Source: Desulfonatronovibrio magnus
GTDB taxonomy: Bacteria > Desulfobacterota > Desulfovibrionia > Desulfovibrionales > Desulfonatronovibrionaceae
Assembly (NCBI RefSeq): GCF_000934755.1
Contig: NZ_KN882182.1
Coordinates: forward strand, 1 to 51,867
Direction of reading: 5' to 3'
DNA length: 51,867 nucleotides
Part shown: positions 12,237 to 36,531 of the stretch, in pieces
Numbering within the stretch: the first letter of the stretch is position 1
Layout of the letters: the number at the start of each line of letters is the position of its first letter
Notes under the pieces: generated by a model
Database searches by the model: none
The model's input: the letters and a program-made list of their open reading frames with translations, nothing else
What the model was told of the DNA's origin: nothing
Program-made: the position numbers and the translations under genes

Positions 12237-12500
12237 ATTAGTAACTTACTCCTGAAGCCCTGTAATAAAAAACAAGAAAATTTGAACCGCAAAGAAGCGA
12301 AGGACTCAAAGTTAAAGACGATAAAGAAGATATTTTTTTGAAAACCGGGCATCGGTTTTCAAAAAGGCTGCCTTTTCATTTGCCGTTCCCCGGCAAATGA
12401 AAAAACCTCTTTCTTCCTTTGCGCCCTTTGCGTCTTGAGTGAGTCTTCGAACGGGCGGTTAAAATATTTTTTTTGGGGTTGTGGGCACAGCCCGCATTAG
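12237..12500 (+). repeat. ATTAG-bounded repeat, copy 1 (264 bp)
   Basis: It starts ATTAGTAACTTACTCCTGAA and ends CAGCCCGCATTAG, so ATTAG occurs at both ends. The second copy is at 35332-35710. The interior holds AACCGCAAAG-type and CCTTTGCGCCCTTTGCG motifs in inverted arrangement, relatives of a repeat common in bacterial intergenic DNA. A hairpin at 12337-12363 (TTTGAAAACCG/CGGTTTTCAAA) is absent from copy 2. The surrounding gaps 11925-12236 and 12501-13000 show no gene I can support. Confidence 0.85.
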
Positions 12501-34934: not shown

Positions 34935-35336
34935 ATGAAAGCTCTGGTTGTAGAAGACGATATGACAAGTAGAATGGTACTTGCCAAAATTCTTTCTCAG
35001 CATTTTACATGTGATACTGCTGAAAATGGGCTGCAGGCTGTGGAAATGTTTCGCGAGGCCCTGCAGAATAATGATCCCTACACCCTGGTTTTTATGGATA
35101 TTATGATGCCCGTAATGGATGGGCAAAGTTCCCTCAAGGCCATCAGAGAAACGGAAACCAAGATGAATGTACCAATTGGAGATGAAGTTAAAGCTGTCAT
35201 GACTACTGCTTTGTCTGATACCAAAAATGTCACTGAAGCATTTTTTCAAGGACAGGCAGACGCTTACATATCTAAGCCCATCTCCAAGGATAAGGTCTTC
35301 GAGGCTCTGCGCGAAGTTAGACTGTTGGAAGATTAG
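34935..35336 (+). CDS. Single-domain CheY-like response regulator
   Basis: This 133-residue receiver domain has no output domain. The acidic pocket is VVEDD, the phosphorylation site is D55 in FMDIMMPVMDG, the switch threonine is in VMTTALSD, and the conserved lysine is in YISKPIS. No kinase gene is adjacent, so its partner is unknown. GGAGG lies 5 bases before the start. The stop codon TAG (35334-35336) falls within the first bases of the repeat starting at 35332. Confidence 0.88.
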   Translation: MKALVVEDDMTSRMVLAKILSQHFTCDTAENGLQAVEMFREALQNNDPYTLVFMDIMMPVMDGQSSLKAIRETETKMNVPIGDEVKAVMTTALSDTKNVTEAFFQGQADAYISKPISKDKVFEALREVRLLED

Positions 35337-35443
35337 TAACTTACTCCTGAAACCCTGTCATAAAAAACAGGAAAATTAGAACCGCAAAGGAGCGAAGGAC
35401 TCAAAGTTAAAGACAATAAAAAAGGCTGCCATTTTATTTGCCG

Positions 35444-35493
35444 CCTGCCTTGTTAAACAGGCATAGTCTCCGTCGCAGACGGGTTTAACTGGG
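35444..35493. mobile_element. Nested 50-bp palindromic insertion
   Basis: Copy 1 of the host repeat reads TTTGCCGTTCCCC. Here 50 bp separate TTTGCCG from TTCCCC. The insert begins CCTGCCTTGTTAAAC and ends GGGTTTAACTGGG, with inverted GTTAAAC/GTTTAAC ends. The centre holds a small GTCT/AGAC hairpin. Confidence 0.75.
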
Positions 35494-35538
35494 TTCCCCG
35501 GAAAATAAAAAAACTTCTTTCTTCCTTTGCACCCTTTG

Positions 35539-35592
35539 CCTGCCTGGTTAAACAACGCTGAAAGCGTTCCTGCGCAGCAGGGTTTAACTGGG
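35539..35592. mobile_element. Nested 54-bp palindromic insertion, same family
   Basis: Its ends match the 50-bp insertion (CCTGCCTGGTTAAAC and GGGTTTAACTGGG) but the interior differs, with AACGCT/AGCGTT and CCTGC/GCAGG hairpins. It interrupts a CCCTTTG-CG junction that is intact in copy 1 of the host repeat. Confidence 0.75.
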
Positions 35593-35601
35593 CGCCTTGA
35601 G

Positions 35602-35653
35602 CTCGCCCTGTTGAATAGACCTTCGGTCTACGGCAAAGCCCTATTCAAATGGG
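35602..35653. mobile_element. Third nested palindromic insertion, different ends
   Basis: About 52 bp are absent from copy 1. The ends CCCTGTTGAATAG and CTATTCAAATGGG are inverted repeats with two mismatches. The centre holds AGACC/GGTCT around TTC. Exact borders are uncertain by a few bases. Confidence 0.6.
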
Positions 35654-35706
35654 TAAATCTTCGAACGGGCGGTTAAAATATTTTTGGGATGTGGGCACAG
35701 CCCGCA

Positions 35707-36531
35707 TTAGATATTCAAGTCTTTAAACATGGAAGAGACAATACGCATATGAGCTTTTTCCTGTTCAGCAAGTTTGAAAAAACATTCTGACAATTCTTGA
35801 GAGTTACTTTTCTGAGCTAAGTTACGGTACATGTCATACGCCATTGTTTCCACCTCAAGAGCCATTTCCAGCAGATATGAATGCAATCCTGGTTCATCGA
35901 CATTTTTGAGTTCATCAATCCAGGCAGAAATTTCTGACCCGCCTTCCATGATATCGCCACCAGCCTTGGCAAAAACCATTTCAAAATCATCATCAAAGGC
36001 TTGAGCATTCAGACTGTAGACCATTTTAGCGTGCCCCTTTTCAAGCTTGGCCAGCTTGCTGATTTTATTTTGCAACTCCTGGTCTTGTATACTGTCAGCC
36101 AGAATCGAGTAAAAATTTTGAGCACCTTTTTCTAAATCAATGGCTTTTTGCAATACCAGTTTTTGATTAGTCAGTCTGGAAAAAAGATTAATCTTGGGAT
36201 AATTAGCCAATGTTTTTCCCTGGTAAGCGAGAATACCGCCTGCCAGGTTATAAATATCCTGATGCAAGAGCCCACTATCCCTGGCCAGGATGGAAGCGCT
36301 CATGGATCTTTTGCCGCTGCGACAATAAAAAACTGTGTTTTTATCAGCTGCAATTTCACCAAGCCTGCCCTCAAGCTCGTAAAGAGGCACAAGAACGGCT
36401 CCGGGAATATGAAAATGTGCGTATTCCTGGGGTGTTCTTACATCAACAAGATTGAATGAATCCTCTTTTTGCTTACCTGTGAAATCTTTAAACTCCTGTG
36501 CTGAAAGGTCAATTATCTGCTGTTCATTCAC
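35707..36531 (-). CDS. Rhodanese-rubrerythrin fusion protein
   Basis: The 274-residue protein has two domains. The rhodanese domain (about 5-110) has the active-site loop CRSGKRS with C70 and DVRTPQEYAHFHIPGA. The ferritin-like, rubrerythrin-type domain (about 130-270) carries two helix pairs with diiron ligand motifs, AIDLEKGAQNFY...LEKGHAKM and ALEVETMAYDMY...EQEKAHMRI. No rubredoxin-like cysteine knot is present. Likely roles are sulfur-species transfer coupled to peroxide or oxygen defence in an anaerobe; the substrate is unknown. CGGAG lies 10 bases before the ATG. Its stop codon is inside the repeat ending at 35710. Confidence 0.85.
   Translation of the reverse strand: MNEQQIIDLSAQEFKDFTGKQKEDSFNLVDVRTPQEYAHFHIPGAVLVPLYELEGRLGEIAADKNTVFYCRSGKRSMSASILARDSGLLHQDIYNLAGGILAYQGKTLANYPKINLFSRLTNQKLVLQKAIDLEKGAQNFYSILADSIQDQELQNKISKLAKLEKGHAKMVYSLNAQAFDDDFEMVFAKAGGDIMEGGSEISAWIDELKNVDEPGLHSYLLEMALEVETMAYDMYRNLAQKSNSQELSECFFKLAEQEKAHMRIVSSMFKDLNI

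Follow-up and report, generated by a model that had tools for sequence, protein, structure and literature searches.

Precisely inserted tagged hairpins in a dispersed repeat of Desulfonatronovibrio magnus: a probable family of very small non-autonomous mobile units

Two copies of a dispersed repeat are located in the window, that is, the whole stretch of 51,867 nucleotides of Desulfonatronovibrio magnus DNA analysed here, and the second copy has gained three short units that are missing from the first. These and the other insertions observed in the repeat are all members of one family, whose units have been gained singly, intact and precisely, with a target preference, nesting of units within one another and paired changes in their stems. 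Judged from these sequence comparisons, the three gains are probably members of a large hairpin family whose units, 33-60 bp in size, are mobile but non-autonomous and are moved in trans.

The parent repeat and its copies in the window

A search of the genome from which the window derives (G000; 4.81 Mb, 134 contigs) with copy 2 yielded 90 match stretches, while the left end of the parent repeat is found at 57 places when up to three mismatches are allowed. The stretches around all of the repeat matches were read and the two window copies were aligned to each other. The following features were identified, with a vertical stroke marking the point of insertion:

35332..35710, plus strand: parent dispersed repeat, copy 2, with ends ATTAGTAACTTACTCCTGAA ... 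GGGCACAGCCCGCATTAG; modules A, B and C present and the GAAAACCGGGCATCGGTTTTC hairpin absent
12237..12500, plus strand: copy 1 of the parent dispersed repeat, the ancestral short form, in which all four sites (A to D) are empty
12337..12363, plus strand: ancestral parent hairpin TTTGAAAACCGGGCATCGGTTTTCAAA (GAAAACCGGGCATCGGTTTTC) in copy 1, deleted from copy 2 with the deletion point at about 35417-35424
35444..35493, plus strand: module A, 50 bp, CCTG-tagged (CCTG-CCT-T-GTTAAAC ... GTTTAAC-T-GGG), a clean insertion that folds as predicted
35539..35592, plus strand: module B, 54 bp, CCTG-tagged, a clean insertion at CCCTTTG|CGTCTTG that forms a perfect three-way junction
35602..35657, minus strand: module C, 56 bp including a flank change (TTTA-CCC-A-TTTGAATA...TATTCAA-CAGGG-CGAG), with the TGAG of the empty site replaced
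12385..12386, no strand: empty site A of copy 1, TTTGCCG|TTCC
12430..12431, no strand: empty site B of copy 1, CCCTTTG|CGTC
12440..12443, no strand: empty site C of copy 1, TGAG
12297..12298, no strand: empty site D of copy 1, from anchored site comparison
35392..35393, no strand: empty site D of copy 2, from anchored site comparison

An earlier sequence-only reading of this DNA had claimed clean gains of 50 and 54 bp in copy 2, and both are confirmed against all other copies in the genome. Its third gain, put at about 52 bp, amounts to 56 bp substituted for the 4-bp TGAG, which leaves 52 bp net, and is as such not a plain insertion, since 4 bp differ. The ends of this unit had been described as unrelated to those of the other two, but the minus strand reveals the same stem plan behind a TTTA tag, and the description is thus a misreading. 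Likewise, the hairpin at 12337-12363 had been described as an extra one of copy 1's own. Of the 40 matched copies, 36 possess it, whereas copy 2 does not, and it therefore represents a loss in copy 2 and no gain in copy 1. For the three gains of copy 2, the earlier description as palindromic elements of very small size, revealed by comparing copies, is apt.

The parent repeat carries TTAG at each end (ATTAGTAACTT... and ...GCRTTAG), as observed at 35332-35710 and 12237-12500, and tandem parent copies have one TTAG in common (L032 and L048). Three loci (L030, L057 and L070) contain parent-repeat ends around very different interiors of about 140-190 bp. Copy 2 is situated between two convergent genes, both of whose stop codons are provided by its ends: TAG (35334-35336) is the stop codon of a response-regulator receiver ORF (34935-35336; Pfam PF00072) and TAA (35707-35709) that of a rhodanese/rubrerythrin ORF on the minus strand (35707-36531).

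Site occupancy and direction of change

Occupancy was counted with anchors on either side of each insertion point, over distinct fetched loci of the own genome and leaving out decayed copies. The empty sites that the sequence-only reading proposed to look for are present for all three of its insertions. Site A (TTTGCCG|TTCC) is empty in 18 copies and harbors the 50-bp unit in 17, with two additional copies in which a 33-bp unit is nested in the 50-bp unit (F in A). Site B (TTTG|CGTC) is empty in 32 copies and contains a unit of 53-54 bp in 13, while two additional copies carry a 34-bp unit nested in B (E′ in B). At site C, GTCTTGAG(TGAG)TCTTCG, 37 copies are empty and six are filled, three of the latter with an additional unit of 42-45 bp (E in C). 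A fourth site, D (TTTG|CGCC, minus strand), which the sequence-only reading had missed, is empty in both window copies; in the genome it is empty in 15 copies and occupied by a 51-bp CCTG-tagged unit plus one G in 12.

In the related genomes, site B of the parent repeat is empty in 11 loci, site D in 11 and site C in nine, alongside one CGAG variant. Site A is empty as well, save in two copies of G009, where a different 35-bp unit, CCTGCCCCGTTAAA(A/C)GCGAAGCCTGTTTAACCGGG plus one G, is placed exactly at TTTGCCG|, and this site has been struck more than once. Because sites B, C and D are empty in the relatives, the short form is, on this comparative evidence, ancestral. The sequence-only reading had named the reverse polarity as the result that would tell against it, with the long form ancestral and copy 1 shortened by precise deletions. 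Replication slippage can indeed remove hairpins precisely, and copy 2 has lost one, but in view of the state of the four sites in the relatives, and as the empty form TTTGCCG|TTCC is an uninterrupted hairpin of the parent itself, this polarity is highly improbable.

Modules A, B and D each lie at one fixed position in many parent copies, suggesting that most copies of each are passengers. This is also what would be seen if the modules were immobile, each with a single origin inside the parent and dispersed solely along with that repeat by duplication or gene conversion. Near-identical modules are, however, found in unrelated targets and outside the parent, as for the 33-mer CCTGCCCAGTTGAATCTCTTCCATTCAACCGGG, which is identical in unrelated targets of G000, G005 and G006. 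Furthermore, another genus holds a different module at the same site, modules occur inside modules and the same architecture recurs with other centres in other phyla. Immobility is as such a very improbable explanation, and it is contradicted for the family as a whole.

Shared architecture of the units

The units follow a single plan, comprising an unpaired 5′ tag, CCC, a free position, GTNNAAN, a centre, NTTNNAC, a second free position and GGG, often with an extra G, over a length of about 33-60 bp. The tag is CCTG or, in a sister set, TTTA. In a tally of loci not selected by tag, in which every module was read on both strands, CCTG is by far the commonest sequence next to the stem foot (40/90 strand-readings), with TTTA in second place (8/90). 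The base pair between the CCC/GGG clamp and the 7-bp stem is usually mismatched, while the centre ranges from a short loop to two abutting hairpins, which give a three-way junction. The single-strand DNA fold of module B is an exact three-way junction with the tag unpaired (z = -4.4).

A search for like modules, also proposed in the earlier reading, shows that they are not due to chance: the pattern CCTGCCYNGTTNAAN{8,38}TTNAACNGGG has 45 matches in the 4.8-Mb own genome against none for the reversed control, and a relaxed CCTG pattern which fixes the foot alone retrieves 77 units, again against none. The stem columns left free by the pattern are paired in 56, 52 and 55 of 57 distinct own-genome sequences, as against 28-30 after shuffling, and the stems include GTTAAAC, GTGAAAC, GTGTAAC, GTAAAAC and GTTGAAT, among others, with the complement always opposite. 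Among 11 distant units of the double-hairpin type, each 54 nt long and together drawn from several phyla, 93.5% of cells are paired over 21 proposed pairs, 12 of which have changes on both sides. Their covariation score is 0.432, compared to 0.146 for shuffled sequences (0/500 shuffles), and falls to about 0.11 on shifting the partner by one column, no shift scoring above about that value.

A candidate avoidance of pairing at the mismatch three pairs above the foot was rejected. Pairing is seen there in 1/57 sequences of the own genome, while across all genomes 17 of 85 clustered sequences are paired against 17.0 expected, and the position is thus unconstrained. In one subfamily the foot is paired throughout (CCCTGTT...AACAGGG) and there are two 13-nt hairpins and TRAA after the GGG (L204, L209, L231, L264 and L283), with CCTG on one side and the complement of a TTTA/TTCA tag on the other. 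To go by its sequence, it may represent a unit bearing both tags.

Two explanations for such palindromes agree poorly with these features. The GTTAAAC and GTTTAAC of the units, which fit the core motifs of integron attC sites, recall tyrosine-recombinase cassettes with GTTRRRY/RYYYAAC-like motifs around a centre. The motif order is, however, reversed relative to attC, the targets at sites B and D are without a shared GTT, and the stem varies in pairs to GTGAAA, GTAAAA and GTGTAA, leaving such cassettes a scarcely credible source. Formation of the palindromes in the course of replication, by template switching or fold-back synthesis and with no dedicated enzyme, would be in keeping with the palindromic centres and with the location of some insertion points in hairpin loops. 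Shared ends are not a prediction of template switching, whereas the units keep their tag and their CCC-N-GT / AC-N-GGG ends from phylum to phylum around unrelated centres, and this origin is considered very improbable.

Insertion signature and target preference

To look for empty sites, the left and right flanks of every unit were fused and compared with all fetched sequence, over 24 bases with up to three mismatches. Empty-site matches exist for 101 of the 210 CCTG units and for 12 of the 40 TTTA units. A minority are array neighbours and hence uninformative. Many are exact or near-exact and derive from the same or a related genome, with 0-mismatch sites including TATTCCG|TGGGCAG, TGAGTGAGTCTT|CGAACGGG and CCCCGTTAAATG|CAAAGCC. 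The DNA gained is a unit ending in GGG or GGGG, that is, its own sequence and at most one G. A check for target duplications, likewise called for by the earlier reading, found none, either among the own-genome sites or among the empty/filled pairs, and A, B and D have kept all their target bases.

With one representative taken per flank cluster (n = 93), the CCTG units enter at YTG|Y, with G at position -1 in 73, T at -2 in 55, a pyrimidine-rich tract at -5 to -3, and T or C as the base after the G run in 87. The targets of TTTA units have only a right-hand pyrimidine in common (22/22). A 1-bp target duplication was considered, as in many CCTG units a left-flank G goes along with a fourth G, and was rejected: at GAGTCTT|CGAACGG, TTTA units have T as their left-flank base and G as the extra base, and the fourth G therefore belongs to the unit rather than to a duplicated left base.

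Units also enter the foot of other units (CCCNG|TTRAA) and the hairpin loops of other repeats, and the landing point of module A is itself the loop of a parent hairpin, CATTTGCCG|TTCCCCGGCAAATG. Head-to-tail arrays occur, such as three 54-bp units in one array of G006. In MAGs of the Desulfobacterales, many 35-bp modules are lodged in the tip of a longer hairpin whose flanks read ...(C/G)TC[module]GTCA... (L228, L242, L252, L278, L290, L302 and others), and from this arrangement a second hairpin family may be a preferred landing site.

DDE elements duplicate their target, while single-strand transposition of the IS200/IS605 type does not. Classical MITEs, with short inverted ends recognised by a DDE transposase, would resemble the units in their conserved inverted ends, variable centres, lack of coding capacity and dispersal. 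The units are, however, without a target duplication, of which at least 2 bp would be required, and their ends are asymmetric with the tag on one side. Single-end 15-base left ends are nearly all short modules or decayed forms, so that no long autonomous partner is evident, and unpaired left ends examined for a long autonomous element gave no clear candidate. An origin as MITEs is thus very improbable.

Distribution and genomic context

A stricter pattern has at least 118 matching stretches in 84,980 species genomes, against about one match expected by chance in the whole collection by a rough estimate. Among the matches listed, most are from Desulfobacterota, and others are from MAGs named Cloacimonadota, Omnitrophica, Moranbacteria, Nomurabacteria, Moraniibacteriota, Armatimonadota and Deferribacteraceae. 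Related modules hence appear in Desulfobacterota, Cloacimonadota, Omnitrophota, Patescibacteria and others, with errors of MAG binning being possible where single contigs are concerned. Carriers number 14 of 297 genomes of the order and 15 of 395 of the phylum, indicating a patchy distribution, and the reversed control patterns have no match in either set. The units are intergenic, only 11 of 135 lying within ORFs of at least 150 codons, though such ORFs make up 66% of that DNA. No strand bias was detected by local GC skew, which is a weak test.

Comparison against Rfam at the gathering score gave no matches in the window, and five module loci yielded a tRNA only. Literature searches with unit sequence strings returned primer and gene matches in unrelated papers only, and no description was found of CCTG-tagged units or of such repeats in Desulfobacterales or Cloacimonadota.

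Comparison with known systems

The small dispersed repeats (SDR) of cyanobacteria, the subject of Elhai et al. 2008, are reportedly very small mobile repeats, to which the units can be likened by description.

The nearest known system is the REP. Like REPs, the units are intergenic palindromes of small size in which one end carries an unpaired tetranucleotide, with many copies, no coding capacity, paired stem changes and sometimes an internal mismatch, and some REP families lie within other palindromes (PMC3733652), although REP-free target palindromes were not found for two of the three cases given there. The REP tag is, however, GTAG (GT[AG]G) or CGTC, while that of the units is CCTG or TTTA, and a REP survey makes no mention of CCTG tags (PMC12306157). 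GTAG REPs flank a RAYT (Y1) gene, which the units do not. REPINs move as inverted doublets (PMC3116915), whereas the units at A, B and D were gained singly, and unit arrays are mostly head-to-tail, a form that is rare in REPs (PMC3733652). The basal stem of the units is kept across phyla, while REPs are species-specific (PMC6006769), and unlike in REPs the centre may be two hairpins and nesting is documented. Since they share the structure of REPs and differ in the tag and in the link to RAYT genes, the units are not to be filed as REPs, though by analogy they may function in a similar way.

Mitochondrial GC clusters and double-hairpin elements are similarly about 30-60 bp in size, with one or two hairpins, intergenic, and able to merge and shuffle (PMC4478555). 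They differ in their organelle hosts, their unrelated sequences and, in the GC clusters, AG or ACT repeats, which are read as target duplications. Rickettsia palindromic elements (RPE) are also small palindromic insertions into existing sequence, two of which, RPE-4 and RPE-6, are CGTC-tagged REPs (PMC3733652), but many are located within coding genes, which the units avoid. The subterminal hairpins of IS200/IS605 elements (HUH Y1) have a 5′ guide tetranucleotide (PMC6006769), and the units agree with this type in the lack of a target-site duplication and the fixed left target (YTG|Y). IS200/IS605 elements contain a transposase gene, however, while the units have none.

Proposed mechanism and significance

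The mobile form of the units would be a folded single strand, on which a trans-acting enzyme would read the tag and stem foot and then cut and join, in the manner of HUH/Y1 enzymes on REP and IS200/IS605 ends. The centre would be expendable, whether a simple loop or two more hairpins, and the large parent repeat would then copy inserted units as passengers. The tag of REP hairpins is read by TnpAREP (PMC6006769, PMC8266576), for which the published guide rule gives cleavage at C|A or C|G in the case of CCTG (PMC8266576). On the tag strand, the observed junction reads G|C at the left and GG|Y at the right. This is not what the published IS200/IS605 guide-to-target rule would predict for that strand, CA or CG being present at the junction on the complementary strand only. 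Y1/RAYT genes are present in G000, G006 and G009, while G005, G012, G014 and G016, which are draft genomes, contain modules without a Y1 match. In 28 stretches scanned, no modules flank the Y1 genes, the nearest lying about 1 kb or more away, with the exception of one related hairpin upstream of a Y1 gene (L147; G015). In G009, matches to Y1 transposases amount to 31 stretches, among them clusters of RAYT-like genes (L319 and L320; contigs C2 and C3).

RNA copy-and-paste is an unlikely alternative to movement as DNA, in which the unit would be transcribed as a hairpin within the repeat and reverse-transcribed into a nicked target in trans. The G-U-compatible stems, intergenic location and high folding stability of the units would suit it, and a reverse-transcriptase route has been suggested for the GC clusters of yeast mitochondria, being discussed for GC42 (PMC4478555). 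The units nevertheless occur in both orientations relative to the parent repeat, and have neither an A-tail nor 5′ truncation.

Returning to non-autonomous hairpins moved in trans, the units could, as a tentative possibility, constitute a separate class of mobile DNA conserved in several phyla. A dedicated enzyme would then move naked hairpins of 33-60 nt one at a time, the four-base tag and the stem foot would suffice, and any centre, even another hairpin, could travel along. In size, the modules appear to rank among the smallest pieces of mobile DNA known. They are single tagged hairpins with exact before-and-after sites at several positions of one repeat, a target rule and a known direction, so that the minimal needs of hairpin mobility could be tested with short oligonucleotides. 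The insertion of units into units accounts for the build-up of mosaic intergenic repeats, while the occurrence of the same ends across phyla suggests a common machinery.
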